From contig NZ_FNPZ01000001.1 of NCBI RefSeq assembly GCF_900107435.1, positions 1,398,960 to 1,462,959 on the forward strand: DNA of 64,000 nucleotides. Reading direction: 5' to 3'. Both the position numbers and the translations under genes were made by a program. This document shows positions 11,829-31,168 of this stretch, piece after piece. The notes under the pieces were generated by a model. That model made no database searches and was not told where the DNA came from. It saw only the letters and a program-made list of their open reading frames with translations. The DNA comes from Herbiconiux ginsengi (GTDB lineage: Bacteria; Actinomycetota; Actinomycetes; Actinomycetales; Microbacteriaceae). Each line of letters begins with the position of its first letter. The first letter of the stretch is position 1.

Positions 11829-11843
11829 TTCCACAATGCGGAA
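11829..11843. promoter_or_regulatory. Candidate IclR-type operator upstream of the aromatic catabolic operon
   Basis: TTCCACAATGCGGAA is a 15-bp interrupted palindrome (TTCC-C-A...TG-GGAA). Its shape resembles operators reported for IclR-family regulators. It ends 6 bp before a candidate -35 box, a position typical of activator binding. The operon encodes two IclR regulators. Binding is inferred, not shown. Confidence 0.5.
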
Positions 11844-11849
11844 CGCTCC

Positions 11850-11879
11850 TTGGCGGGCCCGACACCGTCTCGACATAGT
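11850..11879 (+). promoter_or_regulatory. Candidate promoter of the hyuA-led catabolic operon
   Basis: TTGGCG (11850-11855) and CATAGT (11874-11879) are separated by 18 bp and lie about 40 bp upstream of the hyuA start. This is a plausible housekeeping-type promoter with a weak -10, consistent with activator dependence. Confidence 0.4.
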
Positions 11880-11917
11880 GAGTCCACAACACCCCGCAAC
11901 GAAGCGAAGGACTCTCC

Positions 11918-14050
11918 GTGCACTCGTCGACGAAGTCGAGCACCCCCACCCGATACATGATCGGTACCGACATCGGCGGTACGTTCACCGACCTCGTTCT
12001 CCTCGAGGCAGGGCGACAACCGCGACTCTTCAAGTCACCCACCACGCCGCACGACCGTTCCGAGGGCGTCCTCAACGCGCTGGGACTCGCCGCCGATGCC
12101 GTGGGCCGGCCCGTGGCGGAGTTCATCGAAGACGTCGTGTACTTCGCCCACGGCACCACTGCGGCCACCAACGCCCTGATCGAGCGCAAGGGCGCGAAGA
12201 CCGGTCTGCTGACCACCAGCGGTTTCGGCGACACCATGCTGATCCAACGCAGCATGACTTCGTGGGTCGGCGTGGGAGCGGCGACCGGGCACTACAGCAT
12301 CCGCGAGAACCCCGTACCGCTGGTGTCGCGGGCCGACACCCGCGAGATCACCGAACGGGTCGACTCGGCCGGCACCGCCCTCGTGGCGCTGAACGAGCAG
12401 GAGGTGCGATCGGCCCTCCGCGCGCTCAGAGCCGAGGGGGTCACCGCGCTCGCGGTCAGCTTCCTCTGGTCGTTCCTCAATCCCGATCACGAACTCGACG
12501 TGCAGCGCATCGTGGCGGAGGAATGGCCGGAGGTCTACCTCACGGTCTCGCACGAGGTCGCGCCGGTGATCGGAGAGTACGAGCGCACCGCCACCGCGGT
12601 CATCAACTCCTATCTGGGCCCGGTCATCCGCGACTACATGAGCAACCTCGAGGGTCGTCTGCGCGCCGAAGGTTTCGTGGGCGACTTCTCGGTCATGGAC
12701 TCGGGCGGCGGTGTGATGCGGGCGACGGATGCCGCCGGGCGGTCGGTCTCGCTGCTCACCTCCGGACCCGCCGGGGGCGTGCTGGCCACCACGTCCGCCG
12801 CGTCCCGGCTCGGCTACGCGAACGTGATCACCAGCGACATGGGCGGAACGAGCTTCGACGTCGGCCTGATCATCGACGGCGAGCCACTCGTCGAGCGTAA
12901 GAGCGAGATCGGCAACTATCACCTCTCCATCCCGCGGATCAAGGTGACGGCCATCGGCGCCGGAGGCGGATCGATCGCCGGTGTCGACGAGGTGGGCGCA
13001 CTCGTGGTCGGACCGGAGAGCGCCGGCTCCATGCCCGGTCCCGCCTGTTACGCCCGAGGCGGCACAAGGCCCACGGTCACCGATGCCGACGTCGTGCTCG
13101 GCATCATCGACCCCGCCTATTTCCTGGGCGGCCGGATGCCACTGGACGTCGATCTCGCCCGTGAAGCCATCCGGGCGCACATCGCCGACCCGCTGGGCAT
13201 GACCGTCGAAGAGGCTGCCCTGGGCATTCGCACGGTGGCCGACAACCAGATGGCGGATCTGCTTCGCCGGGTGACGGTCGAACAGGGCCGCGACCCCCGC
13301 GACTTCGTGGTCTTCGCCTACGGTGGCGCCGGGCCGACCCATGCCAGCTCGTACACCTCGGCGGCCGGGATCTCGACGCTCGTCATCCCGCCCACGTCCA
13401 CGGTGCACTCGGCATTCGGTGCCGTGACGGCAGACCGCTTCCGTGCGCTCCAGGCCACCGACCTGCAGCGCACGCCCCCCGGGGAGAGCGACCCGGCCGC
13501 GTTCATCGACCTCGAGCGCCTGAACGGCAGTCTCGACGAGCTGCAGGCGAAGGTGCACGCCGACCTCGACGAGAACGTCGAGGCCGTGTTCGCCCGATCC
13601 GTGCACCTGAAGTTCCGCCGCCAGACCCACGAACTCCCGGTGGCCCTCCCGGCCGGGCCGGTCACCCTCGACGTGATGCGTGACGTCGTCGACGCGTTCC
13701 TCGCCACCTACGAGCGTCTCTACGGCAAGGGGACGGCGATTCGCGCCGCCGGCGTGGAGATCAACACCCTCCGGGTGGAAGGCCGGGTGGCGGTCGGAGT
13801 GGCCACCGGAGGAGAGACACCGGCGCCCTCCGTCGCGGCCTCGCCGATCGGCTCCCGCACGGTGACCTTCGCCGGGCGCGGGTCGCTCGAGGTGCCGGTC
13901 TACCGGGGCGAAGAGGTGGGGCCGGGCAGTGAGATCGCGGGTCCGGCGATTCTCGAGTTCGCCGGCACGACCGTCGTCATCGAACCCGATCAGGACCTGA
14001 TCGTCGACCAGTACAGCAACGTGATCGTGAACTGCGAGGGGAAGAAATGA
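11918..14050 (+). CDS. hyuA: Hydantoinase/oxoprolinase family protein, HyuA subunit (acetone/acetophenone carboxylase-like)
   Basis: A 710-aa ATP-dependent subunit of the HyuA type. The N-terminal nucleotide-binding motif DIGGTFTD is at 18-25; the second ASKHA-type motif DMGGTSFDVG and the conserved GAGGGSIAGVDEVG stretch follow, then the C-terminal HyuA domain. In this family ATP activates a carbonyl so that a partner HyuB either hydrolyses a cyclic amide (5-oxoprolinase, N-methylhydantoinase) or carboxylates a ketone (acetone and acetophenone carboxylases). GTG 11918 has GAAGG 7 nt upstream; ATG 11957 is an alternative. The stop overlaps the hyuB start by ATGA, so the two subunits are translationally coupled. 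It is first in the catabolic operon. Confidence 0.9.
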   Translation: MHSSTKSSTPTRYMIGTDIGGTFTDLVLLEAGRQPRLFKSPTTPHDRSEGVLNALGLAADAVGRPVAEFIEDVVYFAHGTTAATNALIERKGAKTGLLTTSGFGDTMLIQRSMTSWVGVGAATGHYSIRENPVPLVSRADTREITERVDSAGTALVALNEQEVRSALRALRAEGVTALAVSFLWSFLNPDHELDVQRIVAEEWPEVYLTVSHEVAPVIGEYERTATAVINSYLGPVIRDYMSNLEGRLRAEGFVGDFSVMDSGGGVMRATDAAGRSVSLLTSGPAGGVLATTSAASRLGYANVITSDMGGTSFDVGLIIDGEPLVERKSEIGNYHLSIPRIKVTAIGAGGGSIAGVDEVGALVVGPESAGSMPGPACYARGGTRPTVTDADVVLGIIDPAYFLGGRMPLDVDLAREAIRAHIADPLGMTVEEAALGIRTVADNQMADLLRRVTVEQGRDPRDFVVFAYGGAGPTHASSYTSAAGISTLVIPPTSTVHSAFGAVTADRFRALQATDLQRTPPGESDPAAFIDLERLNGSLDELQAKVHADLDENVEAVFARSVHLKFRRQTHELPVALPAGPVTLDVMRDVVDAFLATYERLYGKGTAIRAAGVEINTLRVEGRVAVGVATGGETPAPSVAASPIGSRTVTFAGRGSLEVPVYRGEEVGPGSEIAGPAILEFAGTTVVIEPDQDLIVDQYSNVIVNCEGKK

Positions 14051-16260
14051 CCGTACCCACCGACGTGAGCACCGTGGCCGACGCGCCGACCGCTGAGACC
14101 GCGGTCGACCCGGTGACCTTCGAGGTCATCCGTCACCGGCTGCTCGCCATCACCGACGAGCAGGGCGCAACCCTCGCCGCGATCTCCGGATCGCCCCACG
14201 TCGTGAACGCCAACGACTTCAACGTGGGCCTCTACCTGCCCGACGGCTCGGTGGCGGCGATGGGCCGCACCATCGTTCTGCACTCCGCGTCGATGGCTCT
14301 CATCACCCGGCACGTCATCGCCGACTGCGCGGAGAACCCCGGCATCAAACCGGGCGACATGTTCGTGGTCAACAACCCCTGGAAGGGTGCCATCCACGCT
14401 CAGGACATGGGCATCGTCGTGCCGATCTTCTACGAGGGTGAACTGCTGGCCTGGGCCGGTGCGATGTGCCACCTCCCGGATGTCGGCGGCTCGAAGCCGG
14501 GCAGCTTCTGCAACGACGCCACCGAGTGCTACCAGGAGGGCCTCCAGCTCACGCCCACGAAGATCGTGGAGAACGGCGAGATCCGCGACGACGTGTGGAA
14601 CCTCATCCTCAGCCACACCCGCGCCGCGTCGGCCGTGAATCTCGACATGCGCGGACTCGTCGGCGCCAACAACACGGCGGTGCGCGCCATGACTCAGTTG
14701 GCCGACCGCTACGGCGCGGACACGGTGCGCCAAGTGATGGCCGGCCTCATCAACCTGTCCGATCGTCGGCTGCGGCAGCGGTTGTCGAGCCTCCCGGACG
14801 CCACCGTGCGCTCGCACGCTTTCCTCGACAACGACGGCGGGCTCGACCGGGTGTACGAGATCGACCTCGTGCTCACCAAGAAGGGCGACACCCTCACCTT
14901 CGACTACTCGGGGTCGTCGCCGCAGGCGCCTGGCTACATCAATTGCACCTCCTCGGGTCTGATGGCGGGGATCAACGCAGCCCTGCTGCCGATCCTCGCC
15001 TACGACGCCCCGTGGAACCAGGGGCTGTTCCGGGCGATCGAGGTGAACGCCCCCGAAGGCCTGATCGTGAACGCCAAACGTCCTGCAGCGGTCTCCGGTG
15101 GCGCGCTCGAGGCGGGCTGGCTGGTGGAGATGACCGCCGTCGAGGCGCTCTCCAAGCTCGCCGCCTGCTCCGACGAGCTGATCCGGGAGAGCCAGGCCGC
15201 GCCGGCCGGGGGACCCGACCAGTTCGTGCTGAGCGGAACGAACGCGCACGGCGACCCCTTCACCCACGTCATCCTCGACTGCCTCGCCACCGGCGGCGGC
15301 GCGTACGCCCACCGCGACGGCGTCTGGACGCAGGGGCAGCACAACATCGAGCGTCAGCGCATCTCGAACGCCGAGGACATGGAACTGGAGACCCCGCTGC
15401 TCTACCTCTCGCGCAGCCTGATCGTCGATTCCGGCGGCGCGGGCGAACGCCGTGGCGGCCAGAGCATGGGCTCGGTGTTCCTCGCCCACGGCGGCTCCGA
15501 TCTGCGGGCCGTCTGCAACGGCCACGGCTGGGAGGCGCCGAACTCCACCGGGATCTTCGGCGGATACCCGGGCACGCAGAACGACCGCGAGGTCGTCTCC
15601 GGCAGTGACGTGCTCGAACGGATGCGCCAGGGCGAGATCCTCAACGACGTCGCCGACATCGCGGGCGAACGCCCCACGATGCACGGCCGCCAGGGTCTCG
15701 TGCGACTCGCCGACGGCGACGTCATCGCCTCGGTGCACCAGTCCGGGGGTGGCTGGGGCGACCCGCTGAACCGCTCCGCCGACGATCTCGCTGCCGACCT
15801 CCGCGACCGCGCGATCAGCGTCGATGCGGCCGAACGGCTCTACGGGGCCGTGGTGGTGAACGGAACCATCGACGATGTCGCCACCCGCGAGCGCCGGGAG
15901 GCGATCCGGGGCGAGCGGCTGACCTGGCCGCGAGCGACGGATGCGCCGGAGGTCGCCGTCACGGGTGACGCTCTGCGTCGCGGTCCTCTCGGCACCCAGC
16001 TGAGCATCGTCGAGGCGCCCGACGGGTCGGCATTCGTCGCGTGCAACTGCGGACACGTCTTCGGTTCTGTCCGCGAGCCCTGGCGGGCGAGCGCCTTGGA
16101 GCGCCGCAGCCACGACGTGCACGAGTTCAGCCGTTCGCGTCGACTCAACGAGGTGCTCGAGATCCGCGAGTATGCCTGCCCTTCCTGCGCCGTGCTCCTG
16201 GCGACCGACGTCGCCGGAGTCGGATCCGCCATCCTGCACGACATCGAAATGGAGAGCTGA
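14047..16260 (+). CDS. hyuB: Hydantoinase B family subunit with C-terminal zinc-binding acetone-carboxylase-gamma-like tail
   Basis: A 737-aa partner of HyuA. The HyuB domain covers about residues 15-560 (DPVTFEVIRHRLLAITDEQG; DMFVVNNPWKGAIHAQDMG; GGGAYAHRDGVWTQGQHNIE; RRGGQSMGS). The remaining ~150 residues are not normal for HyuB. They carry two Cys pairs, Cys666/Cys668 (ACNCGH) and Cys711/Cys714 (CPSC), with an intervening Trp/Arg-rich stretch, recalling the small zinc-binding gamma subunit of acetone carboxylase. The fusion supports a carboxylase-type role over simple hydantoin hydrolysis, though the substrate is unknown. It overlaps hyuA and is followed at once by the dioxygenase genes. 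Confidence 0.87.
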   Translation: MTVPTDVSTVADAPTAETAVDPVTFEVIRHRLLAITDEQGATLAAISGSPHVVNANDFNVGLYLPDGSVAAMGRTIVLHSASMALITRHVIADCAENPGIKPGDMFVVNNPWKGAIHAQDMGIVVPIFYEGELLAWAGAMCHLPDVGGSKPGSFCNDATECYQEGLQLTPTKIVENGEIRDDVWNLILSHTRAASAVNLDMRGLVGANNTAVRAMTQLADRYGADTVRQVMAGLINLSDRRLRQRLSSLPDATVRSHAFLDNDGGLDRVYEIDLVLTKKGDTLTFDYSGSSPQAPGYINCTSSGLMAGINAALLPILAYDAPWNQGLFRAIEVNAPEGLIVNAKRPAAVSGGALEAGWLVEMTAVEALSKLAACSDELIRESQAAPAGGPDQFVLSGTNAHGDPFTHVILDCLATGGGAYAHRDGVWTQGQHNIERQRISNAEDMELETPLLYLSRSLIVDSGGAGERRGGQSMGSVFLAHGGSDLRAVCNGHGWEAPNSTGIFGGYPGTQNDREVVSGSDVLERMRQGEILNDVADIAGERPTMHGRQGLVRLADGDVIASVHQSGGGWGDPLNRSADDLAADLRDRAISVDAAERLYGAVVVNGTIDDVATRERREAIRGERLTWPRATDAPEVAVTGDALRRGPLGTQLSIVEAPDGSAFVACNCGHVFGSVREPWRASALERRSHDVHEFSRSRRLNEVLEIREYACPSCAVLLATDVAGVGSAILHDIEMES

Positions 16261-16262
16261 GC

Positions 16263-17081
16263 ATGAGCCGAATGGCCCTGGTCGCCGCGACATCGCACGT
16301 CGGCGCCATCATCAAGAATCCCGACGCCGTGCCCGAGCGGTCCTCGCTCCTGAAGTCGGCCTGGGAAAGACTCACCGTCGAGATCGCAGCGGCGGATCTC
16401 GACGCGGTGATCGTGGTCGGAACCGATCATTTCGAGACCTTCAACCTCGAGAACCATCCCACCTTCTGCCTCGGCGTCGCCGACGACTACGAGGCCTGGG
16501 GCGAGTTCGGCAACCCTTCGGGCTCGCTGAAGGGCGCGCCCGAGGTGAGCGCGCATCTGCTGGAGGGCCTGATCGCGCGTGGCTTCGACGTCTCGCGCAG
16601 CCACGAGATGCCCCTGGATCACGCCTACATGGTGCCGATCCTGCGTCTCGAACTCGCGGAGTTGCCGATCATCCCGCTCTACATCAACTGCAACACTCCG
16701 CCGCTGCCCACCCTGCAGCGGTGCCGCGACCTCGGCGAGGCGATCCGTGCCACCGTCGAAGCGCTGCCGGGCGATCTCCGGATCGGACTGGTCGCCACCG
16801 GCGGCGTCTCGCACTGGGTGGGTCTGCCGCAGTTCGGGCAGATCAACCCCGAGTGGGATCGCGACTTCCTGGAGCTGTTCCAAGCGGCGGATCTGGACGC
16901 GCTCGTGGGGTTCAGCGACGAGGAGATCCTCGCCGACGCCGGCAACGGCGCTCTCGAGGTGCGCACCTGGATTCTGGCGCAGGCGGCGGCGGGCAATCCG
17001 CACAGCCAGTTGCTGGAGTACCAGCCCATGGAGCCCTGGGGGATCGGGATCGGGATCATGCGGATGGCGGACGCGACATGA
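16263..17081 (+). CDS. Class III extradiol ring-cleavage dioxygenase catalytic subunit (LigB/MhpB-like)
   Basis: A 272-aa non-haem Fe(II) dioxygenase subunit of the LigB superfamily, which opens catechol-type rings next to the hydroxyls. By comparison with LigB, His12 (ATSHVGA), His56 (GTDHFET) and Glu232 (LEVRTW) match the iron ligands, and His184 (GGVSHW) the catalytic base. The ATG at 16263 follows GGAGAG, two bases after the hyuB stop. The stop overlaps the start of the LigA-like gene by ATGA, so the product is probably a two-subunit enzyme. Candidate substrates are carboxylated catechols such as protocatechuate, gallate or 2,3-dihydroxybenzoate types; the sequence alone does not decide. 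Confidence 0.88.
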   Translation: MSRMALVAATSHVGAIIKNPDAVPERSSLLKSAWERLTVEIAAADLDAVIVVGTDHFETFNLENHPTFCLGVADDYEAWGEFGNPSGSLKGAPEVSAHLLEGLIARGFDVSRSHEMPLDHAYMVPILRLELAELPIIPLYINCNTPPLPTLQRCRDLGEAIRATVEALPGDLRIGLVATGGVSHWVGLPQFGQINPEWDRDFLELFQAADLDALVGFSDEEILADAGNGALEVRTWILAQAAAGNPHSQLLEYQPMEPWGIGIGIMRMADAT

Positions 17082-17326
17082 GCGTCATCGCGGTGAACAA
17101 ATTCACGCTCGACCTCGAACACAAGCCCGGCGTGCTGGAGGCCTACCGGGCCGATCCGGCGGCGGTACTCGACGGCTACCGGCTTTCCGACGCCGAGCGC
17201 GACGCCATCGCGCGGCTGGACGCCGACTGGTTCCTCACCGCCGGTGTGAACCCGATCGTGATCCGCAACCTGCTGGTCATCCTCGGCATCCCGCATAACC
17301 AGATGTACACCCACGACCAGAGCTGA
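17078..17326 (+). CDS. LigA-like small subunit of the extradiol dioxygenase
   Basis: An 82-aa protein matching the alpha chain (LigA domain) of protocatechuate 4,5-dioxygenase-type enzymes: an all-helical protein with VNKFTLDLEHKPGVLEAYRA at the N-terminus, GYRLSDAERDAI and DWFLTAGVNPIVIRNLLVIL. LigA packs over the LigB active site and shapes the substrate pocket. It is coupled to the preceding LigB-like gene by an ATGA overlap, confirming the pairing. Length is shorter than classical LigA (about 140 aa) but normal for free-standing LigA-domain proteins. Confidence 0.85.
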   Translation: MSVIAVNKFTLDLEHKPGVLEAYRADPAAVLDGYRLSDAERDAIARLDADWFLTAGVNPIVIRNLLVILGIPHNQMYTHDQS

Positions 17327-17354
17327 CGCCCCGCGCGTCGAATCGGAGAACAGA

Positions 17355-18890
17355 GTGGTTCCCACCCCCGCGACGGCCACGCCGTCGCCGACCGCCCAGC
17401 ACCACGACGACGTCGTGCTGAGCCTGCGCGGTGTCACGAAGTCGTTCGGCGGCCCCCCGGCGATCCGGTCGATCGACCTCGACGTACGCACCGGCCGCAT
17501 CCACGCCCTGCTCGGGATGAACGGCGCCGGCAAATCCACGCTGGTACAGATCATCAGCGGCTCGCTTGCCGCGACGGCGGGCGAGATCACCGTCGGCGAC
17601 ACCCGCTACCGGCTGATCAGCCCGCGGCGGGCCCGTGCCGCCGGCGTCGCCACCGTGTTCCAGCGCCGCACGCTGGTGCCGTCGCTGACCGTGGCCGAGA
17701 ACATCCTGCTCGGCGAGCTGCCGACGCGGGCCGGCATCGTCGACTGGTCCGCCGCCCGCCGGGCTGCTGAGGAGGCGCTCGGGGTGATCGGCGCGCGCAT
17801 CGACCCGAAGGCGAGCGTCGATCAGCTCGGCGCCGCTCAGCAGACCCTGGTGGAGATCGCCCGCGAGATCCGGAAGGGTGCGCGGCTGCTGCTGCTCGAC
17901 GAGCCGACGGCCGCCCTGGGGGCAGCCGACTCGGCGACCGTGCACGAGGTCGTGCGGGGCCTTGCCGCCGATGGCGTGGCTGTGATCTACATCTCGCACC
18001 ACCTCGAGGAGGTGATGCACCTCGCCGACGACGTGACCGTGCTGCGCGACGGATGCGTCGTGCTCGACGCTCCCGTGCGCAGCATCGATCTGCCGACACT
18101 GGTACGCGCCATGGTGGGAGACGACGTGATCTCGGATCGTGCTCCGCGCTCGACGGAGTACGGCCCGGTCGTGCTCGAGCTGCAGGACGTCTCGGTCGAA
18201 CGCCGGATCGACCGGCTCGACCTCACGGTGCGGGCCGGGGAGATCGTGGCGGTGCTCGGCCCGGCCGGCGCCGCGCAGGAGGCGCTCTTCCCCCTCCTGG
18301 CCGGCCTCCGGCCCGCCGACGCGGGTCGCATCCACGTCGCCGGAGCGGCATTGCGTCCCGGCGTCCGCAATTCGCTGGAATCGGGTCTGCGCTGCGTGAG
18401 TGTCGACCGACTGGGCCTCGGTCTCGTTCCCGGCCTGTCCGTGTCGGAGAACATCACCGCGTTCGAGCAGGTCGTCGCGCGGCGGATGCTCGTGCGCTGG
18501 CGTCGCCTCACCTCGCGAGCCGACGAACTGCGTCGCAGGTTCGACGTGGTCACGCTCGCCGACGATCCACCCGTCGACCGGCTCTCGGGCGGAAACCAGC
18601 AGAAGGTGCTGCTGGCGAAATGGCTGGGTAACGAATCCGTCAAGGCATGCCTGCTCGAGGAGCCGACCGGCGGGGTGGACATCAGCGCCAAGGCCGAGAT
18701 CCACCGCTACATCGAAGAACTCGCGGCACAGGGAACCGCTGTGCTCCTGGCGAGCAGCGACGTCGACGAAGTCGTGCGACTGGCCGATCGCATCGTCGTC
18801 GTGCGCGGCGAATCCGTGGTGGCCGAATGCGAAGCGGCCGTCACAACCCATGAAGAGCTGGTCTCGATCGTTCTCGGAGGACACGCATGA
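17355..18890 (+). CDS. ABC importer ATP-binding protein, ribose/RbsA type with two ATPase domains
   Basis: A 511-aa duplicated ATPase. The first domain has a full Walker A (GMNGAGKST, about 54-62), an atypical signature (LGAAQQTLVEIARE) and Walker B (LLLLDEPTAALG). The second has a degenerate P-loop (GPAGAAQEAL), as is usual for this family, with an intact LSGGNQQKVLLAKWL signature and LLEEPTGGVD. Such proteins normally power import of pentoses, autoinducer-2 and related polar compounds. Here the gene sits between ring-cleavage genes, so it may import the aromatic or glycosylated substrate. GTG 17355 is preceded by GGAGAA. Confidence 0.9.
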   Translation: MVPTPATATPSPTAQHHDDVVLSLRGVTKSFGGPPAIRSIDLDVRTGRIHALLGMNGAGKSTLVQIISGSLAATAGEITVGDTRYRLISPRRARAAGVATVFQRRTLVPSLTVAENILLGELPTRAGIVDWSAARRAAEEALGVIGARIDPKASVDQLGAAQQTLVEIAREIRKGARLLLLDEPTAALGAADSATVHEVVRGLAADGVAVIYISHHLEEVMHLADDVTVLRDGCVVLDAPVRSIDLPTLVRAMVGDDVISDRAPRSTEYGPVVLELQDVSVERRIDRLDLTVRAGEIVAVLGPAGAAQEALFPLLAGLRPADAGRIHVAGAALRPGVRNSLESGLRCVSVDRLGLGLVPGLSVSENITAFEQVVARRMLVRWRRLTSRADELRRRFDVVTLADDPPVDRLSGGNQQKVLLAKWLGNESVKACLLEEPTGGVDISAKAEIHRYIEELAAQGTAVLLASSDVDEVVRLADRIVVVRGESVVAECEAAVTTHEELVSIVLGGHA

Positions 18891-19864: not shown

Positions 19865-19921
19865 GTCCGGACACCCGCCGGACCCTGACGATCCATTCCC
19901 ACACAGAAAGCGCATTGTTCA

Positions 19922-20881: not shown

Positions 20882-20887
20882 CCGGCG

Positions 20888-21676: not shown

Positions 21677-22440
21677 CCATCAATCTCGAGACGATCGACG
21701 ACGTCGACGCCGGCTGGGTGCACTTCCCGCGAGGTGACCAGCTGATCCGGGGCTATCTCGCCGTACCCAAGGGCGACGGCCCCTTCCCCGCGGTCATCAC
21801 CGCGCATGAGAACCTCGGTGTGACCGAGCATCGGCAGGGAGTCACCCGGGACCTCGCGCGCGAGGGATTCGTGAGCCTCACGGTCGACCTGTTCTCGCGG
21901 CTCGGCGGAGTCTCACCGCGCAACTACCGCGACAACGACGAGCGCCGGTCGCTCGCGTTCCTCGCCGCTCGGGACGACCAGGCCGTGCCTGACCTGCAGG
22001 CGGGCGTCGAATTCCTGAAGTCGCTGCCCCACGTCGATCCCGACCGCATCGGCGCCCTCGGTTTCTGCCTCGGCGGCGGAACGGTGATGGTCTGGGGAAC
22101 GCAGACCGACGACCTGAAGGCGATCGTGTCGCTCTACGGCATCCCCGTGTTGCCGCCGGAGTATTCGCCCACGGGCGAGGAGCAATCCCGCATCCCGACC
22201 CTCGGGTCGCTTCGTGCGCCGATCCAGTTCCACTTCGGCGCCGACGACGAGGCGATCCCGCACGACCAGATCGACGCGCTCGAAGCGGCACTGCCGACCA
22301 GCGCCACGACGGCCGAGTTCTACCGGCACGAGGGCGCTCGGCACGCCTATCACGACGACACGCACAAGAACTACAACCCGCAGGCCGCCGCCGAGACCTG
22401 GAACGAGACGCTCGAGTTCCTGCGTCGGTACCTCTCGTGA
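21673..22440 (+). CDS. Dienelactone hydrolase family protein
   Basis: A 255-aa alpha/beta hydrolase of the dienelactone hydrolase group with a Cys nucleophile: Cys132 in GALGFCLGGG, Asp191 in FGADDEAIP and His224 in EGARHAYHDD complete the expected triad. Members hydrolyse dienelactones or related enol lactones and some small esters. In a meta-cleavage operon it may hydrolyse a lactone side product or an ester of the substrate; this is inferred from context. Start overlaps the IclR stop (ATGA) and stop overlaps the next start (GTGA). Confidence 0.88.
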   Translation: MTINLETIDDVDAGWVHFPRGDQLIRGYLAVPKGDGPFPAVITAHENLGVTEHRQGVTRDLAREGFVSLTVDLFSRLGGVSPRNYRDNDERRSLAFLAARDDQAVPDLQAGVEFLKSLPHVDPDRIGALGFCLGGGTVMVWGTQTDDLKAIVSLYGIPVLPPEYSPTGEEQSRIPTLGSLRAPIQFHFGADDEAIPHDQIDALEAALPTSATTAEFYRHEGARHAYHDDTHKNYNPQAAAETWNETLEFLRRYLS

Positions 22441-23282
22441 GCATCTGGACCGAACTGCTCGGAGGCACGGTCGCCTTCGAGGAGATAGCCGGTGTGAGAA
22501 CCCGCATCCTGCGCTTCGGACCCGACGCCGGGCGGCCGATCCTGCTGCTGCACGGGCGGGGCGGTCATCTCGAGACCTTCGTGCGCAACATCCGCGCCTG
22601 GGCCGGCGACGCCCGGCCGGTGATCGCGTTCGACCTGCTCGGCCACGGCTTGACCGCCCAGGCCGGAACCCGCTACGACATCGGAGAATTGCACGAGCAC
22701 GCCCGGGCGGTGCGTGACCTCGTCGCGCCCGGCGACCACGACCTCGTGGGCCAGTCGCTCGGCGGGTGGCTCGCCGTGCTGCTCGCCGAAAGCCGCCCGC
22801 CGCGACGGCTCGTCCTGATCGAACCCGCCGGCTTCCAATCGGAAGGCGAGCGGATGGCCGACCCCCGGGTTCGTGCCGCCTCCGCTGCCGGCGGGCTGGC
22901 CTTCGACGCCGCGACCCGGGAGAACGTGGAGGCTCGGTTCGCCCAGCTCCTGAACGATCCACACCGGCTCGATCCGGAGATGGTCGACCTCCGCACCGAG
23001 CTGTACGCGGTGCCGGGTGCGGGCGCCGTGCACCGGGCGGTGCGCTCGGGCGACAACGCCCGCTGGCTCATCGACAAGGAACGATTCGCAGCTCTGCCGG
23101 TGGCGCCCCTGATCGTGCGCGGAGCTCGTGGTCACATCCCCGCGGAGACCTTGCGGCAGCTCGCCGAGGCACCCGGAGGTGCACTCCTCACCATCGCCGA
23201 TGCCAAGCAGTGGCCGCACTACGAGAACCCCGACGCCGTGAATCCCGCGGTGATCGATTACCTGAAGGAGAAGACAGCATGA
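22437..23282 (+). CDS. Alpha/beta hydrolase fold protein with altered catalytic residues
   Basis: A 281-aa alpha/beta hydrolase with an oxyanion motif (LLHGRGGH) and nucleophile elbow Ser107 (GQSLGGW). It is a tandem paralogue of the next gene: both begin MSxWTxxLG and have RTRxL and GHG at matching positions. Aligned with that neighbour, the catalytic Asp position is Ala230 (VRGARGHIP in place of IWTDKNP) and the catalytic His is Gln258 (AKQWPHYE in place of AGHWPMFE); a His occurs three residues later. The protein may therefore be inactive as a hydrolase, use a rearranged triad, or serve a non-hydrolytic or partner role. GTG start overlaps the previous stop. Confidence 0.85.
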   Translation: MSIWTELLGGTVAFEEIAGVRTRILRFGPDAGRPILLLHGRGGHLETFVRNIRAWAGDARPVIAFDLLGHGLTAQAGTRYDIGELHEHARAVRDLVAPGDHDLVGQSLGGWLAVLLAESRPPRRLVLIEPAGFQSEGERMADPRVRAASAAGGLAFDAATRENVEARFAQLLNDPHRLDPEMVDLRTELYAVPGAGAVHRAVRSGDNARWLIDKERFAALPVAPLIVRGARGHIPAETLRQLAEAPGGALLTIADAKQWPHYENPDAVNPAVIDYLKEKTA

Positions 23283-24151
23283 GTTTCTGGACCGACGCCC
23301 TCGGCGCCCGGATCGAGTACTACGACGCCGGCGGCTGGCGCACCCGCGCCCTCGAGGCCGGCGACGAGGGAGCCGACGTCATCATGATGGGCGGGCTCTC
23401 CGGGCACGTCGAGGGCTTCATCCGGAACGTCGTGCCGCTCTCCCAGCGCGGATTGCGCGTGCACGCGATCGACGTGCTCGGACACGGCTACACCGACAAG
23501 CCCCTCGACGTCACCTACCACGCACCTGCGTTCACCGATCACCTGCTGCGATTCATGGACGCGCGAGGGATCGCGAAGGCTCACATCGTGGGCCAGAGCC
23601 TCGGTGGGTGGATCGCTTTGCACACCGCCCGCACCCACCCCGAGCGGGTGGACAAGATCGTGTTCGCCACCGGGGCCGGGGTGTTGCTGAGCGACGAGGG
23701 GCGCAAGGAGGAGAGCGAGAAGGTGCACGCCGCCGTGCAGAGCGTCACCAAGAAGGCCGTCGACTCGCCGAGTTACGAGAGCGTCAAGGCCCGCCTGGAA
23801 TGGCTGATGGCCGACCCTGCCACCGTGACCGACGAGCTCATCCGAACGCGCCTGGCCATCTACCAGCTCGCCGACAGTCGCCTGGCGATGGCGAAGCTGG
23901 TCGAGGAGCAGGCAGGCGAGGGCAACCGCCGATACCTCCTCGGCGAGGACGACCTCGCCGCTCTGCCCCAGGAGACCCTGGTCATCTGGACCGACAAGAA
24001 CCCGACGACCCCTCTCGAGGTCGGCCGGCGGGCGAGCGAACTCATCCCGAACGCTCGATTCGAGGTGATCGAGAACGCCGGGCACTGGCCGATGTTCGAG
24101 CAGCCCGCTGAGTTCAACCGCCTGGTCGGCGAATTCCTCGCCGCGTCATGA
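23279..24151 (+). CDS. Alpha/beta hydrolase, probable meta-cleavage product C-C hydrolase (MhpC/BphD-like)
   Basis: A 290-aa alpha/beta hydrolase with Ser107 (GQSLGGW), Asp239 (IWTDKNPTTP) and His269 (AGHWPMFEQPAEFNRLVGEF). The last segment is the hallmark ending of meta-cleavage product hydrolases such as MhpC, XylF and BphD, which split the C-C bond of 2-hydroxy-6-oxo-dienoates to 2-hydroxypentadienoate and an acid. Location directly before hydratase, dehydrogenase and aldolase genes fits that step. It is the complete-triad partner of the preceding paralogue. Overlaps on both sides are ATGA. Confidence 0.87.
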   Translation: MSFWTDALGARIEYYDAGGWRTRALEAGDEGADVIMMGGLSGHVEGFIRNVVPLSQRGLRVHAIDVLGHGYTDKPLDVTYHAPAFTDHLLRFMDARGIAKAHIVGQSLGGWIALHTARTHPERVDKIVFATGAGVLLSDEGRKEESEKVHAAVQSVTKKAVDSPSYESVKARLEWLMADPATVTDELIRTRLAIYQLADSRLAMAKLVEEQAGEGNRRYLLGEDDLAALPQETLVIWTDKNPTTPLEVGRRASELIPNARFEVIENAGHWPMFEQPAEFNRLVGEFLAAS

Positions 24152-24873
24152 CCGACGACCTCCGCTCCTCCGTCGTTCTCGGCAGCCGCGTGCTCGCCGA
24201 GAACGGCCACTCCGACATGGTCTGGGGGCATCTCTCGCTGCGCGACCCGGCGGGGCGGGGGATCTGGATCAAACGAGCGGGCCTCGGCTTCGAGGAGCTG
24301 ACGAGCGACGACATCCACCTCGTCGGATGGGACGGCGAGCGGGTCGAGGGTGGCGGTGACGTCCACCTCGAATGCCACATCCACCTCGAGGTGATGCGGG
24401 CACGGGCGGACGTGAGCTCCGTGGTGCACAGTCATCCCGAAGCTGCGGTGACCCTCGCGGGCACGGGGATCCCGCTTCTCGCCGTGGGGCATGAGGCGTG
24501 CTTCTTCGCGCCCGGCGACCTGCCGCGGTTCACCGAGACGGGTGACCTCATCCGCGACCCGGCACTCGGCCGGTCTGTGGCCGCGACCCTCGGTGAACGC
24601 AATGCCGCGTTGCTTGTCGACCACGGGATCGTGGTGGCGGAATCCTCGCTGCCGAGGGCCGTTTTCGGCGCCGTGCTCCTGGAGCGGGCGGCCCGGATGA
24701 CGCTGGCCGCCGTCTCAGCCGCCGGAGGCGTGGGGAATGTGGCTCACTCCTCCCAGGCGGAAGCCCTGGCCAAGCGCGACCGGTGCTACTCCGATCGCCA
24801 GGTGGGGCACGGCTGGGACTATCTCGTACGGCGGCTCCGCACGGATACGGAACGGAAAGGAACATCGTCATGA
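24148..24873 (+). CDS. Class II aldolase/adducin family protein, possible decarboxylase
   Basis: A 241-aa class II aldolase-fold enzyme. The metal site is visible as Glu75 (HLECHIH), His94 and His96 (VVHSHPEA) and His159 (VDHGIVV), matching the Glu/His set of fuculose-phosphate aldolase. In aromatic pathways this fold also provides decarboxylases acting on 3-carboxy-2-hydroxymuconate-type products and on dihydroxyphthalate. Its place between the C-C hydrolase and the hydratase suggests removal of a ring-derived carboxyl, but an aldolase role cannot be excluded. Coupled on both sides by ATGA overlaps. Confidence 0.83.
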   Translation: MTDDLRSSVVLGSRVLAENGHSDMVWGHLSLRDPAGRGIWIKRAGLGFEELTSDDIHLVGWDGERVEGGGDVHLECHIHLEVMRARADVSSVVHSHPEAAVTLAGTGIPLLAVGHEACFFAPGDLPRFTETGDLIRDPALGRSVAATLGERNAALLVDHGIVVAESSLPRAVFGAVLLERAARMTLAAVSAAGGVGNVAHSSQAEALAKRDRCYSDRQVGHGWDYLVRRLRTDTERKGTSS

Positions 24874-25652
24874 CAACCCTGTCGCACACCGGGATCGCCG
24901 AGGAGTTGATCGCGGCGACCCGCGGGCGAACCGTGGTGCAGCCCCTGCGCAAGCGCTTCCCGGCGCTCACCCTCGACGACGCCTACGCGATCCAGGTTCA
25001 CCAGCTCGACGCTCGCCGGCGTAGCGGATCGACTCTCGTGGGCCGCAAGATCGGGCTCACTTCCACCGCGATGCAGCGACAACTCGGCATCGACTCCCCG
25101 GATTTCGGGTTCGTTCTCGACGACATGGTGTACTCCGACGGCGACTCGATCCCACTGGACCGCTTCGTGGCGCCGCGCGTGGAGCCCGAGCTGGCGTTCG
25201 TGCTGCGGCATTCGCTCTCCGGCCCCGGCGTCGACCGGGAGGAGGCGCTCGCCGCGGTGGAGTACGTGTTCGCCGCGATCGAGATCATCGACTCGCGCAT
25301 CGCCGACTGGGACATCGGACTGCTCGACACCGTGGCCGACAACGCCTCGTGCGGGGCGATCGTGGTCGCCCGCGAGCCGATGGACATCGACGTCGGCCAC
25401 ACCCGGTCGGTCGAGGTCGACCTCCATCGAAACGGCGAGATCGTCGACAGCGGTCGCGGTGACGCCGTGCTCGGCGACCCGTTGCAGCCCCTGGTGTGGC
25501 TCGCCAACGTGCTCGGCGAGCACGGCGCCACCATCCAGGCCGGCGAGATCGTGCTCACCGGTTCGTTCTGCCGAGCGGCACCCGTCGTGCGCGGCGATCG
25601 CGTGACGGCGGATTTCCGCGATCACGGCTCCCTGACCATCGACTTCACCTGA
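24870..25652 (+). CDS. mhpD: 2-keto-4-pentenoate hydratase (MhpD type)
   Basis: A 260-aa member of the fumarylacetoacetate hydrolase-fold hydratases that convert 2-hydroxypenta-2,4-dienoate to 4-hydroxy-2-oxovalerate. Recognisable stretches are DDAYAIQVHQL, VGRKIGLTSTAMQRQLGI, PDFGFVLDDMV, PRVEPELAFVL with its metal-binding Glu pair, and VLTGSFCRAAPV near the end. ATG 24870 overlaps the preceding stop and has GGAAAGGA upstream; the frame is open further upstream but that part is not conserved. It starts the lower meta pathway with the next two genes. Confidence 0.93.
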   Translation: MTTLSHTGIAEELIAATRGRTVVQPLRKRFPALTLDDAYAIQVHQLDARRRSGSTLVGRKIGLTSTAMQRQLGIDSPDFGFVLDDMVYSDGDSIPLDRFVAPRVEPELAFVLRHSLSGPGVDREEALAAVEYVFAAIEIIDSRIADWDIGLLDTVADNASCGAIVVAREPMDIDVGHTRSVEVDLHRNGEIVDSGRGDAVLGDPLQPLVWLANVLGEHGATIQAGEIVLTGSFCRAAPVVRGDRVTADFRDHGSLTIDFT

Positions 25653-25661
25653 GGAATCACC

Positions 25662-26588
25662 ATGACCAAGACCGCCGCGATCGTCGGCTCCGGGAACATC
25701 GGCACCGACCTGATGTTCAAGCTGCTGCGCCGATCGACCGAGATCACCCCTACGATCATGATCGGCATCGACCCCGAGTCCGACGGGCTGGCCCGAGCCG
25801 GCCGACTCGGTCTCGCCACCTCCGCCGCTGGCGTCGACTGGCTGCTCCAGCACGACGAGCGGCCCGACTTCGTCTTCGAGGCGACCTCGGCCAAGGCGCA
25901 CCTGGCCAATGCTCCGCGCTATCGGGAGGCCGGCATCACCGCCATCGACCTCACCCCCGCGGCGGTGGGTCCATACCTGTGCCCGGCGGTGAACCTCGAC
26001 GCACTCGGGGAGGTCGGCAACGTCAACATGATCACCTGCGGCGGGCAGGCGACCACGCCGATCGTCGCGGCCGTGAGCCGGATCGTGCCGGTGGAGTACG
26101 CCGAGATCGTCTCCTCGATCGCCTCACGGTCGGCCGGGCCGGGCACTCGAGCGAACGTGGACGAGTTCACGGAGACCACCGCCGCGGCGCTCTCCGCCGT
26201 GGGAGGAGCGGAGCGCGGAAAGGCGATCATCATCATCAACCCGGTCGATCCGCCGATGATCATGCGCAACACGGTGTACTGCACCATCCCGGCCGAGGTC
26301 GCGGAGGCGGGGCCTGCACAGGACGCCGTCCGCGAATCGATCGCACGGATGGTCGAGTCGGTCCAGGACTACGTGCCCGGTTACTCGCTGAGGGTCGACC
26401 CGCAATTCGATCCGCCCCGATCCGACTGGAACGGCCACGGTCGTGTGGGGGTCTGGCTGGAGGTGCGCGGTGCGGGCGACTACCTGCCCGATTACGCCGG
26501 CAATCTCGACATCATCACGGCGGCGGCTGTGCGCACGGCTGATCTGCTCGCATCCCGCCGCACGACCGCCTCGGAGGCCACAGCATGA
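25662..26588 (+). CDS. mhpF: Acetaldehyde dehydrogenase, acetylating (MhpF/DmpF type)
   Basis: A 308-aa NAD-dependent CoA-acylating aldehyde dehydrogenase. A Rossmann motif [10 protein letters not shown] (10-18) binds NAD, and Cys126 ([10 protein letters not shown]) is the thioester-forming residue; the conserved ARTN-like segment [16 protein letters not shown] is present. It turns acetaldehyde, channelled from the aldolase encoded next, into acetyl-CoA. The stop overlaps the aldolase start by ATGA, as expected for the obligate two-enzyme complex. Confidence 0.95.
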
Positions 26589-27607
26589 CCATGCAGCACG
26601 ATCTCGCCGTCCGCCTGACCGACACCACGCTGCGCGACGGCTCGCACGCCGTCAGCCATCGATTCACTGTTCCGCAGGTGCGTACGGTGGTGCGTGCGCT
26701 CGACGACGCCGGTGTGCAGGTGATCGAAGTGACGCACGGCGACGGCCTGGGCGGCTCGAGTTTCAACTACGGATTCTCCGCGACGCCCGAACTCGAGCTG
26801 GTGGCCGCCGCCGTCGACGAGGCGCGGCGCGCGCGGATCGCCGTGCTGCTGCTGCCCGGCCTCGGCACCATCCAGGATCTCGACCGGGCGTTCGATGCGG
26901 GCGCCTCCATTGCGCGGATCGCCACCCACTCGACCGAGGCCGACATCTCGATCGAGCATTTCGGCCACGCTCGCGAGCTCGGCATGGAGACGGTGGGATT
27001 CCTGATGCTCTCGCACCGGGTGGAGCCGCAGGCGCTGGCGAAGCAGGCCAGGATCATGGCCGACGCGGGCTGCCAATGCGTCTACGTGGTCGACTCGGCC
27101 GGCGCGCTCATCCTCGAGCAGGTGAGCGACCGGGTCGCCGCGCTCGTCGACGAGTTGCACGGCGACGCCGAAGTGGGCTTCCACGGTCACCAGAACATCA
27201 GCTTCGGTGTGGCGAACTCGGTCTTCGCGGCCCGCGCCGGCGCGACGCAGATCGACGGCACGCTGATGGGCCTCGGTGCCGGTGCAGGCAATTCGCCGAC
27301 CGAAGTGCTGGCGGTCGCGTTCGAGCGCCTCGGCATCCGCACGGGCGTCGACGCCCAGAAGATCATGGCCGCCGCCGACGAGGCTGCCCGGCCCCTGATC
27401 ACCCGGATGCCCGTGATGGACCGGCCCTCGATCATGCAGGGCTACGCCGGCGTCTACTCGTCATTCCTCATCCACGCCGAGCGGGCATCGGAGCGTTACG
27501 GCGTCCCGGCCTGGCGCATCCTGGAAGAGGCCGGACGGGCCGGTTACGTGGGAGGGCAGGAAGACATGCTGGTGGAGGTCGCCGTGCGGCTCGCCGCTGC
27601 GTCGTGA
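26585..27607 (+). CDS. mhpE: 4-hydroxy-2-oxovalerate aldolase (MhpE/DmpG type)
   Basis: A 340-aa metal-dependent aldolase of the DRE-TIM group. [17 protein letters not shown] at the N-terminus carries the metal-binding Asp and catalytic His, and [15 protein letters not shown] carries the two metal-binding His residues. It splits 4-hydroxy-2-oxovalerate into pyruvate and acetaldehyde and passes the aldehyde to the dehydrogenase. It is the last coupled enzyme of the operon; a 41-bp gap precedes the second IclR gene. Confidence 0.95.
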
Positions 27608-27648
27608 CCCCGGTGACCAGGGCTGTGGGGCTCGGATAGCATTCGGGA

Positions 27649-28398
27649 ATGGACGATGCCCGTCACGTGAAGTCGGTGGAGCGCGCACTCGACATCCTGA
27701 TGGCCTTCAACGCCCGCAATCCGCGGCTCCAGCTGCAGGAGTTGGCGGAGTCGGCGGGCATCCCGAAGTCCAGCGCCCGGCGACTGGCGCTGACGTTGAT
27801 CTCGGCGGGGTTCCTCGAACAGAGTGCCGACGGCACGTATTGCCTGGGCGGGCGGCTGCTCGAACTGGGCGGCGTGGTCGCGAATGCCGGCGCGCTCAGT
27901 GAACTGACCGCCCGCACGATGCGAGAGATCCACGAGGCGTCGGGTGAGTCGGTGCTGGTGGCCGATGTGAACTGGATCGACCGTTCGATCCTCATCACGC
28001 ACAAGCGCGACGCCGTCCACCTGCTCTCGATCTCGTCGCCCGTCGGCAAGCGAACGGCGCTCGGGACCGGATGCATCACGAAAGCCGCCCTCGCTGCACT
28101 CCCCGCCGCAGAGGCCGAGCGCGTGGTGGCGCACATGGCGTTCGCCCGCAAGACGCCTCGATCCGTCGCCAGCGCGAGTGAGCTCCTCGGCCAGCTCGAG
28201 GTCATCCGCGCGCAGGGTTGGGCGAGTGAGGAAGGGGAGTTCATCGACGGCGTGTCGGGGGTGGCCGTCGCCGTCGTCGAGAACGAGCGACCGATCGGCG
28301 CGGTGGCGGTCATCGCGCCGTCTTCCCGCGCTCCCCGTTCGTCGCTCGAGACCTGGGGGGCTCTCATGAGCGCCTCCCTGGGGCGGGGTGTGACGTGA
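27649..28398 (+). CDS. IclR-family transcriptional regulator (second copy)
   Basis: A 249-aa IclR protein with HTH (LQELAESAGIPKSSARRLAL) and effector domain (SISSPVGKRTALGTGCITKA; EGEFIDGVSGVAVAVV). It shares long identical stretches with the IclR at 20888, including GGRLLELGG, LITHK and SPVGKRT, so the two are recent paralogues flanking the lower pathway genes. Two related regulators could distinguish an early substrate from a later intermediate, or one may be a redundant duplicate. Confidence 0.93.
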   Translation: MDDARHVKSVERALDILMAFNARNPRLQLQELAESAGIPKSSARRLALTLISAGFLEQSADGTYCLGGRLLELGGVVANAGALSELTARTMREIHEASGESVLVADVNWIDRSILITHKRDAVHLLSISSPVGKRTALGTGCITKAALAALPAAEAERVVAHMAFARKTPRSVASASELLGQLEVIRAQGWASEEGEFIDGVSGVAVAVVENERPIGAVAVIAPSSRAPRSSLETWGALMSASLGRGVT

Positions 28399-28441
28399 TG
28401 ACTCGTGGAGACGTCGGGAAGCCGCTCGGTAGTCTCAGGAG

Positions 28442-29371
28442 ATGAGCTCCATCACCGTGCACGAGGTCGCATCCGCCGACGAGGGACCGTACGGAGTGGC
28501 CGTCACCGACGACGGCGCCGTGTGGTGCACACTCGTGCACGCGGGGGCCGTGCTCCGGGTGGTCCGGGATGTCGGCGGCGGCGTCGCGGTGACGCGTATC
28601 GATCTGCTGGGGCCGGGCATCCCGAGCGTGTCTGCAAGACCGGGCGCGGGCAAGCCGCAGACCGCACAGGTCGCCGCCGCGGGCGAGGACACCGTGTGGG
28701 TCACCGACACCGCGGGTGACGCGGTGCTGCTGGTCGGGCCGACCGGCATCCTGCGCCGCATCGACGTTCCGACGCCCGGCGCCCAGCCGTTCGGCATCGC
28801 CACCCAGGCCGACGGAACCACCTGGTTCACCGAACTGGGCCGCGATGCCCTGGGCCACATCGACCTCCTCGGCCGCGTGACCGAGTTCCCCGCCGGCATC
28901 GACGAGGGATTCGTGTCCATGATCGCCTCCTCGGGCGAGAGCCTCTGGTTCACGGCGAATCAGGCCAACGCGATCGGCTACATCCGCGGCGGCGACTCGG
29001 CGGTGCAGCTGTTCGAGGTCCCCACGCCGCACTCCGGGCCCGTGGGCATCACGGTGGGCGACGACGGGGCCGCCTGGTTCTGCGAGATCCTCGCCGGCAC
29101 CATCGGCCGCGTCGACCGCACTGGCCGCTTCACCGAGTTCGCGCTGCCGTGGCCGGAATCGAAGCCGCACGCCATCGCGGTCGATCCCGCCGGCGGATTC
29201 TGGGCCACCCTCTGGGGCTCGAACCAACTCGCCCACATCGCGCTCGACGGCACGATCGAGATCGTCGATCTCCCCGGCTCCCACTCCGAACCGCACGGCC
29301 TCGCAGTGGCCGCCGACGGCACGGTCTGGGTCGCCATGGAGTCCGGCGCCCTCCTGGCGATCACCCCGTAA
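28442..29371 (+). CDS. Beta-propeller protein of the virginiamycin B lyase (Vgb)/streptogramin lyase family
   Basis: A 309-aa protein made of seven repeated blades, each with a pattern like AxxxDGTxWFTE or GDDGAAWFCEI followed by IGRVDRTGRFTEF. This is typical of Vgb-type lyases, which linearise streptogramin B by beta-elimination at a lactone ester. No signal peptide. Most family members are of unknown function, so antibiotic resistance is not claimed. It follows the second IclR and may act on a lactone-type substrate of the cluster. GGAG ends at the base before ATG 28442, an unusually short spacing. Confidence 0.78.
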   Translation: MSSITVHEVASADEGPYGVAVTDDGAVWCTLVHAGAVLRVVRDVGGGVAVTRIDLLGPGIPSVSARPGAGKPQTAQVAAAGEDTVWVTDTAGDAVLLVGPTGILRRIDVPTPGAQPFGIATQADGTTWFTELGRDALGHIDLLGRVTEFPAGIDEGFVSMIASSGESLWFTANQANAIGYIRGGDSAVQLFEVPTPHSGPVGITVGDDGAAWFCEILAGTIGRVDRTGRFTEFALPWPESKPHAIAVDPAGGFWATLWGSNQLAHIALDGTIEIVDLPGSHSEPHGLAVAADGTVWVAMESGALLAITP

Positions 29372-29377: not shown

Positions 29378-29440
29378 TCGCGACCCGCCAAAATCCGCCC
29401 CTCTCACCCCGGAATGAGGGCGGATTTTGGCGGGTCGCGA
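29378..29440. terminator. Bidirectional terminator-like 23-bp perfect hairpin between convergent genes
   Basis: Left arm 29378-29400 and right arm 29418-29440 are perfect complements with a 17-nt loop. Each arm contains an A4/T4 tract (CCGCCAAAATCCGCCC). It lies between the Vgb-like gene and the convergent thioredoxin-like gene, so it probably ends both transcripts. The arms are longer than needed for a terminator. Confidence 0.75.
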
Positions 29441-29464
29441 GGAGGCGTGGGGTGGGGAAGGGGG

Positions 29465-29881: not shown

Positions 29882-31168
<1,287 letters not shown>

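Follow-up and report, generated by a model that had tools for sequence, protein, structure and literature searches.

An operon in Herbiconiux ginsengi joining a HyuAB-type ATP-dependent enzyme to LigAB-type ring cleavage, a candidate route for catechol-bearing compounds

Sixteen consecutive plus-strand genes at 11918-28398 form an operon in a 64,000-nucleotide stretch of the Herbiconiux ginsengi genome (Actinomycetota; NCBI RefSeq assembly GCF_900107435.1, contig NZ_FNPZ01000001.1, positions 1,398,960 to 1,462,959 of the forward strand), referred to here as the window. It runs from a gene for a HyuA-type ATPase to the second of two IclR-type regulator genes, and appears to encode a hitherto undescribed route for taking up and degrading a compound with a catechol group, in which an ATP-using enzyme is paired with a ring-opening enzyme. 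Each part falls into a known family, and there are precedents for the logic of the ring cleavage. The substrate is tentatively read, with a probability of about 0.45, as a compound that has a catechol-type ring from the outset and bears a ketone or similar side group. A first-pass annotation of this DNA, made from the letters alone, had described an overlapping operon of about fifteen plus-strand genes at 11918-29371 and knew of no pathway with this exact gene set. No paper describing the set turned up in the open-licence literature searched, and the overlapping arrangement holds (4-bp overlaps at 9 of the 15 junctions between HyuA and IclR2), although the right end had been drawn too far, since the block ends with IclR2 at 28398. 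The genes named in that annotation were found, but it had omitted AldII, a dienelactone-hydrolase-like protein (DLH) and two alpha/beta-hydrolases (ABH1 and ABH2), all of which belong to the conserved core. GC and GC3 (GC at third codon positions) are alike across the 16 genes, which are listed below with the gene that follows them.

11918..14050, plus strand: HyuA-type ATPase (alpha) subunit (Pfam Hydant_A_N, Hydantoinase_A, Hydant_A_C)
14047..16260, plus strand: HyuB-type metal subunit (beta) with a fused acetone-carboxylase-gamma-like zinc tail at about residues 647-735 (Pfam Hydantoinase_B 1.6e-123, Acetone_carb_G 1.1e-9)
16263..17081, plus strand: LigB-type class III extradiol dioxygenase, catalytic subunit (PF02900 LigB, 128 bits, cut-off 26)
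17078..17326, plus strand: LigA-type small subunit, overlapping LigB by 4 bp (PF07746 LigA 2.9e-9)
17355..18890, plus strand: RbsA-type ABC ATPase of the variable importer module (ABC_tran, two stretches)
18887..19864, plus strand: RbsC-type permease (BPD_transp_2)
19922..20881, plus strand: RbsB-type substrate-binding protein (Peripla_BP_4 7.8e-35)
20888..21676, plus strand: IclR-type regulator 1 (HTH_IclR, IclR_C)
21673..22440, plus strand: DLH, a dienelactone-hydrolase-like enzyme with C132-D192-H224, E46 and R91 (DLH family 1.7e-42)
22437..23282, plus strand: ABH1, alpha/beta-hydrolase fold with an altered triad, Ser107 kept and His replaced by Gln258 (Abhydrolase_6)
23279..24151, plus strand: ABH2, putative meta-cleavage-product hydrolase with S107, D239 and H269 (Abhydrolase_1 2.5e-30)
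24148..24873, plus strand: AldII, class II aldolase-fold putative decarboxylase (Aldolase_II 5.6e-35)
24870..25652, plus strand: MhpD/DmpE-type 2-hydroxypenta-2,4-dienoate hydratase (TIGR03220, 258 bits, cut-off 409; FAA_hydrolase)
25662..26588, plus strand: MhpF, acylating acetaldehyde dehydrogenase (AcetDehyd-dimer 8.4e-58)
26585..27607, plus strand: MhpE, 4-hydroxy-2-oxovalerate aldolase (HMGL-like, DmpG_comm)
27649..28398, plus strand: IclR-type regulator 2, final gene of the acquired block (HTH_IclR, IclR_C)
28442..29371, plus strand: Vgb-like (virginiamycin B lyase-family) gene adjoining purA, outside the acquired block

Eight of these genes, HyuA, HyuB with its gamma-like tail, LigB, LigA, DLH, ABH1, ABH2 and AldII, form a core that is conserved across two phyla. 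A scan with HyuB peptides over one genome per species (84,980 species) returned 16 loci, all from Actinomycetota as judged by genus names, with HyuB 64-76% identical; such a scan picks up only close relatives and therefore sets lower bounds on these counts, and a core without HyuB could not show up among loci found via HyuB. The first-pass annotation had proposed a search for the neighbourhood HyuA-HyuB-LigB-LigA-RbsABC-MhpDFE. Its first half is borne out, as HyuA, HyuB, LigB and LigA are consecutive in 16 of 16 loci, but RbsA/RbsC orthologues are present in 10 of the 16 and MhpF was seen within the available flank in 6 of the 16 (in one case as a fragment of 33 residues at the edge), while several flanks stop shortly after AldII. 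Two of the 16 loci end at a contig edge after RbsC; in the 14 untruncated ones DLH, ABH1, ABH2 and AldII also follow. All eight core genes are found as well on a plasmid of the alphaproteobacterium Niveispirillum cyanobacteriorum (L036 in our numbering of loci), in the order HyuA-HyuB-DLH-ABH1-ABH2-LigB-LigA-AldII. Seven of them were found there by tblastn at 32-60% identity, while LigA was missed by tblastn and is present as an open reading frame (ORF) matching the LigA family at 2.9e-7. Of 394 genomes sampled from the class, 7, counting the host, have ABH2 at 60% identity or above; the six other genomes correspond to six of the 16 carriers from the HyuB scan, so this figure is a rate and not independent support. 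AldII of L039 (about 16768-17444) and MhpE of L040 (about 15454-16480) are each split over two frames in draft sequence, by assembly error or decay.

The earlier view of one coupled catabolic unit is upheld by this conservation. The transporter and MhpDFE behave differently from the core. The ribose-type importer proposed earlier is present here as RbsABC, but it lies outside the conserved unit and is replaced elsewhere by a more distant Rbs-like set (L043-L045, with a Peripla_BP_4 protein shown for L043), by an NMT1-type ABC set (L039-L041, with the binding protein shown in L039, the ATPase and permeases in L040 and a permease in L041), or, on the Niveispirillum plasmid, by a TonB receptor and an MFS-like protein, the latter read from sequence. 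MhpDFE of the other loci show 40-58% identity to those of the window (64% in the one 33-residue piece). This variation in type or place, and these identities, would suit an assortment of independent functions gathered in a metabolic island rather than a single pathway; however, eight genes stay together across two phyla, 9 of the 15 junctions overlap here, and the nearest congener found lacks the whole block, which makes such an assortment very unlikely.

The operon is horizontally acquired, and its insertion relative to the nearest congener is shown by alignment. Among 16 genomes of the genus searched, the nearest congener (PurA 99% identical) aligns to the window at 2348-10916 and then from 28423 onward, with 83-88% identity, and has 333 bp where the window has 10,917-28,422. 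The Vgb-like gene, which the first-pass annotation took as the last member of the operon, stands outside the unit because it is on the DNA side common with this congener; it belongs to the ancestral purA neighbourhood and is kept where the block is absent. Apart from the window's own HyuA, these 16 genomes give at best a full-length match of 41% identity, and one partial match of 43%. A LigB match at E <= 1e-10 is found in 48 of 299 genomes of the family (own included), the best non-self match being 39% identical. The host genome has one Hydantoinase_B match and two LigB-family genes. Between the two 600-bp stretches compared at the insertion borders there is no direct 12-mer in common, and there is one inverted 12-mer.

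Ring opening by a LigAB-type enzyme and a lower pathway by MhpDFE, as proposed before, are supported by family matches and by conserved LigB residues. H12, H56, H120, H184 and E232 of LigB are invariant in 18 of 18 sequences, and H12, H56, H184 and E232 presumably correspond to the conserved His/Glu site of the family. The nearest solved structures are MhpB (8k04) and LigAB (1b4u). LigB thus shares the fold family, the conserved His/Glu residues and a small LigA-type partner with known LigAB/MhpB class III dioxygenases, but differs in having an MhpB-like C-terminus despite the LigA subunit, in sequence identity (30-37% to the 30 plasmid-borne relatives listed) and in sub-cut-off scores: with none of the ten LigB-type NCBIfam models matched does it reach the curated cut-off, and LigA gives 22 bits with TIGR02792 (cut-off 109). 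A plasmid of Rhizobium rosettiformans carries LigA-like and LigB-like subunits amid hydrolases, an FAD monooxygenase and a xanthine-dehydrogenase-type enzyme (L087, 7552-11753), which appears to be another LigAB-type pathway. As noted in the first-pass annotation, the operon has no ring hydroxylase. The Rieske ring-hydroxylase alpha family has no match at E <= 0.001 in the whole host genome, though FAD_binding_3 matches lie at 33 places, several of them short generic FAD-binding matches. In Aeromicrobium sp. Leaf350 (L042) the core adjoins an apparent Mhp-type phenylpropionate cluster at 76-7492 (LigB/MhpB-like protein, ABH2 paralogue, MFS protein, MhpDFE), and an FAD_binding_3 monooxygenase-type gene, possibly a hydroxylase in this one locus, lies just beyond AldII on the opposite strand (20693-21916, minus).

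The first-pass annotation ran from LigAB directly to MhpDFE. Both are present, but with the decarboxylase and three hydrolase-fold proteins the route comes closer to the p-cumate (cmt) and 2,3-dihydroxybenzoate (dhb) pathways. The nearest solved structure to ABH2 is 2-hydroxy-6-oxo-7-methylocta-2,4-dienoate hydrolase (2d0d/1iun, E 7e-32), which we take to be CumD. The Ser-Asp-His triad of ABH2 is kept in 16 of 16 orthologues, and the best NCBIfam model for AldII is 3,4-dihydroxyphthalate decarboxylase (97 bits, below the cut-off of 200). In Pseudomonas reinekei MT1 the class II aldolase DhbB takes part in removing the carboxylate after ring fission of 2,3-dihydroxybenzoate (PMC6362003), and the cmt order is 3,4-dioxygenase CmtC, decarboxylase CmtD and hydrolase CmtE, followed by hydratase, aldolase and dehydrogenase (PMC5224996). 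The two pathways thus combine extradiol cleavage, loss of the carboxylate from the ring-fission product (through a class II aldolase where DhbB acts), hydrolysis of the meta-cleavage product and a lower pathway of MhpDEF type (PMC6362003, PMC5224996). In the operon a class II aldolase-fold decarboxylase, an intact-triad hydrolase and a hydratase-aldolase-dehydrogenase set are recognised by folds and residues only. Because DhbB and the Cmt reaction order parallel these gene families, LigAB-AldII-ABH2-MhpDFE is best read, by analogy, as a cmt/dhb-like meta-pathway block with a class III dioxygenase. It differs from the known pathways in the two-subunit class III LigAB, while DhbA is described as type I (PMC6362003), in the lack of a Rieske dioxygenase or diol dehydrogenase in the operon, and in the addition of HyuAB, DLH and ABH1.

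A straight cmt/dhb-type pathway for 2,3-dihydroxybenzoate or a 4-substituted derivative would leave HyuAB, DLH and ABH1 to act only on a leftover acid or ketone after hydrolysis, or on an upstream lactone. AldII, ABH2 and MhpDFE match the CmtD-CmtE-CmtFGH order and DhbB, and the MhpB-like C-terminus of LigB may suit 3-substituted catechols. Against this, HyuA-HyuB come first among the core genes in all 17 loci and are never lost, which suggests an early or obligatory step, although gene order is weak evidence and loci found through HyuB could not lack it. We consider this straight version distinctly doubtful.

The first-pass annotation regarded HyuAB as an ATP-using, carbonyl-activating enzyme, a description that is supported here. 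The HyuA residues D18/G20/G21/T22/D25, D307/G309/G310/T311 and P373/G374/P375, which make up the ATP-binding motifs as named in PMC5214803 and PMC8453981, are invariant in 18 of 18 sequences, and so is the HyuB metal tetrad D57/H117/D120/H142, the same as in CapB/Apc (PMC8453981). These features are common to lactamases and carboxylases and do not decide between them. The gamma-like tail of HyuB carries four cysteines, C666/C668/C711/C714, which are also invariant in 18 of 18 sequences, the first pair being spaced C-x-C; a gamma part with four cysteines is reported to be common to acetophenone carboxylase (Apc) and acetone carboxylase (Acx) and absent from Hyd enzymes (PMC5214803). In an unrooted tree of 28 HyuB sequences (IQ-TREE, LG+F+G4, ultrafast bootstrap; 5-oxoprolinase left out), a branch with support 100 splits seven gamma-less sequences (CapB, NmhAB, L073, L097-L100) from 21 with a gamma part or a separate gamma gene, and the window HyuB sits on the gamma-bearing side. 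Because of the four-cysteine gamma part and this separation from the gamma-less lactamases, HyuAB is more likely a ketone carboxylase, and ketone carboxylation is placed ahead of lactam hydrolysis by roughly two to one. The earlier alternative of a ketone or a lactam as the activated group is thus retained in both its halves, with a lean to the ketone from the gamma tail and the HyuB tree.

Several findings weigh against a ketone carboxylase, and with it against the proposed substrate. The top NCBIfam models for HyuA and HyuB are those of the caprolactamase CapA/CapB (551 and 246 bits), ahead of acetophenone carboxylase (428 bits for HyuA with ApcC, 216 for HyuB); all these scores are below curated cut-offs, and those for CapA and CapB compare with cut-offs of 1000. 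CapB also ranks first in the PDB search with HyuB. AcxB, ApcD and L096 cluster together with support 99, leaving the window HyuB outside, and the tree is small and unrooted, with weak inner branches among the gamma-bearing sequences (52, 57, 67). Apc has a second ATPase subunit (alpha') and an epsilon subunit, neither of which lies next to HyuAB here; there is no second HyuA in the operon, and a CoA ligase is absent from it, which also counts against 3,4-dihydroxyacetophenone, the example of a substrate discussed below. With ApcABCDE and AcxABC the operon shares an ATPase subunit with ASKHA motifs, the beta metal tetrad and a gamma part with four cysteines, but its gamma part is fused to beta and its scores are lower than those to caprolactamase. 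The LigB C-terminus matches MhpB in alignment rather than protocatechuate dioxygenase, which is not in favour of a protocatechuate step and likewise counts against 3,4-dihydroxyacetophenone. Finally, a distant actinobacterial locus (L101, 1-18000) holds an NMT1-type transporter, two zinc alcohol dehydrogenases, HyuA, HyuB, a separate gamma-like ORF with four cysteines, a short-chain dehydrogenase/reductase (SDR), MhpF, MhpE, MhpD, an aldehyde dehydrogenase and, on the other strand, a class II aldolase (2.8e-26), and has no LigB match in the 35 kb compared. HyuAB, MhpDFE and a class II aldolase can thus associate without LigAB ring cleavage, and the association of HyuAB with AldII and MhpDFE may predate that with LigAB. 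The gamma-like ORF of L101, 98 residues long, matches Pfam only weakly (12.6 bits, cut-off 21); its position and CxxC pairs are the grounds for naming it gamma.

An ATP-dependent lactam or cyclic imide hydrolase would instead open an N-heterocycle fused to or borne by a catechol or aminophenol ring, and LigAB and the rest would degrade the ring. The caprolactamase scores among profiles and solved structures speak for such an enzyme, as do the HL-D-GG motif region of HyuB, which resembles CapB, and a related gamma-lactamase that acts in indoleacetate metabolism (PMC5214803; PMC8453981). CapAB, 5-oxoprolinase and N-methylhydantoinase provide the best profiles and PDB match and, in CapB, the metal tetrad, but they lack the gamma part, and CapB and NmhAB are parted from the window HyuB at support 100. 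The four invariant cysteines, reported absent from Hyd enzymes (PMC5214803), and a core that contains no amidase, deaminase or aminotransferase argue further against lactam hydrolysis, which is somewhat unlikely overall. Tyr136 of CapB was dropped as a marker of lactam hydrolysis, as it is not conserved in N-methylhydantoinase either.

Genomic context also leans towards carboxylation. Within the stretch read, an alcohol dehydrogenase/SDR or a CoA ligase/CoA transferase occurs in eight of nine gamma-bearing HyuAB loci outside the cluster (L090-L095 and L101-L103, the exception being L093) and in one of five gamma-less loci (L073 among L073 and L097-L100). The loci were chosen from best hits, and the flanks compared were longer for the gamma-bearing L090-L093 (9 kb) than for L094, L095 and the gamma-less L097-L100 (6 kb). 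L096, which has a separate, unannotated gamma stretch, is in the HyuB tree and was left out of this count. Context is an unclean marker of function, because the gamma-less HyuAB of L073 lies between a beta-keto-acid cleavage enzyme and an SDR, which weakens the support that context gives to a carboxylase. This is the second HyuAB pair of the Niveispirillum plasmid (L036 33582-38149, L073 31-6254), which is also accompanied by a carboxymuconolactone decarboxylase-family gene. In HyuB of a Rhodococcus opacus plasmid (L091, 8908-11217) the length of the gamma tail is kept, with one of the four cysteines.

Two of the core hydrolases have no counterpart in the cmt/dhb comparison. ABH1 and ABH2 of the window share 84 of 278 aligned residues. 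In ABH1 the Ser is kept and the catalytic His is replaced by Gln in 16 of 16 orthologues, and the acid position holds Glu in 14 of the 16, Ala in the window and Gln in L042, so that ABH1 lacks the Ser-Asp-His triad of meta-cleavage-product hydrolases. Since the altered protein is kept beside an active paralogue in two phyla, ABH1 is, to judge from its residues, most likely a partner or a specialised enzyme and not a case of decay. In DLH, Cys132, Asp192, His224, Glu46 and Arg91 are present in 16 of 16 orthologues, and we take these residues to correspond to those of classical dienelactone hydrolase.

With a ketone-bearing catechol as the substrate, the steps might be ordered as follows. RbsABC would import the compound, and HyuA (ATPase) and HyuB (metal site and gamma-like zinc tail) would phosphorylate and carboxylate its carbonyl to a beta-keto acid, as acetone and acetophenone carboxylases do. 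DLH, ABH1 or both would hydrolyse the beta-keto acid to acetate and an aromatic acid, replacing the CoA ligase of the acetophenone pathway. LigAB would then open the catechol ring, AldII would take the carboxylate off the ring-fission product like DhbB and CmtD, ABH2 would hydrolyse the product to 2-hydroxypenta-2,4-dienoate and a short acid, and MhpD, E and F would yield pyruvate and acetyl-CoA. As an example, 3,4-dihydroxyacetophenone is a candidate substrate whose breakdown would call on all the core genes. This compound is formed and cleaved in Rhodococcus RHA1, and the ring-fission product is not metabolised further there, which makes it a dead end (PMC13101465).

In its most specific form the proposal would be an undescribed aerobic acyl-catechol route, in which a biotin-independent, gamma-beta-fused carboxylase acts on the side-chain ketone (for example of 3,4-dihydroxyacetophenone) with no need to phosphorylate the phenol first, two hydrolases, one of them the triad-less ABH1, cleave the beta-keto acid, the ring is opened by class III LigAB, and a CmtD/DhbB-like decarboxylation follows the opening. 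We hold this full combination to be rather unlikely; if true, it would be a natural way past the dead end met in RHA1. The Hpe (hydroxyphenylethanone) pathway of Rhodococcus rhodochrous GD02 is similar in that hydroxyacetophenone is catabolised aerobically via ATP-dependent carboxylation, but it uses a phenol kinase and a biotin-dependent carboxylase (PMC9618137). It was set aside as the identity of the operon, in which neither enzyme is encoded. The two-gene acetophenone cluster of GD02 was also set aside, as it consists of a Baeyer-Villiger monooxygenase and an esterase, not HyuAB (PMC9618137). So was isoflavone catabolism (ifc): the available text of PMC11069340 contains neither 'hydantoinase' nor 'acetone carboxylase', and its first enzyme is a flavin hydroxylase, which is absent from the operon.

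The surroundings of the operon add a few observations. On the plus strand, 17 genes stand in a row between a DUF222/HNH gene (9434-10936) and purA (29882-31168). The DUF222/HNH protein has a run of near-identical short Thr-His-Pro-Thr-type repeats ahead of its HNH part. The promoter scan returned no sites, and the terminator scan returned 10 against 4.6 expected, within or between genes and with no clear pattern. Two tRNA-Phe calls by ARAGORN, at 16401-16476 (minus, antisense inside LigB) and 55657-55744 (minus), look spurious; Rfam has no match in the window at gathering scores. A small ORF at 29414-29842 has no match in the PHROGs scan.

If the proposal is true, a class III dioxygenase that opens the ring would share one operon with an enzyme resembling ketone carboxylases, as a conserved aromatic catabolic module. 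ABH1 is a conserved alpha/beta-hydrolase whose catalytic His is replaced throughout its orthologues, and the HyuB proteins with a fused gamma tail, annotated only as hydantoinase B/oxoprolinase family in the plasmid records opened, would gain a testable function. The operon would then be a candidate route for hydroxyacetophenones derived from lignin or plants.

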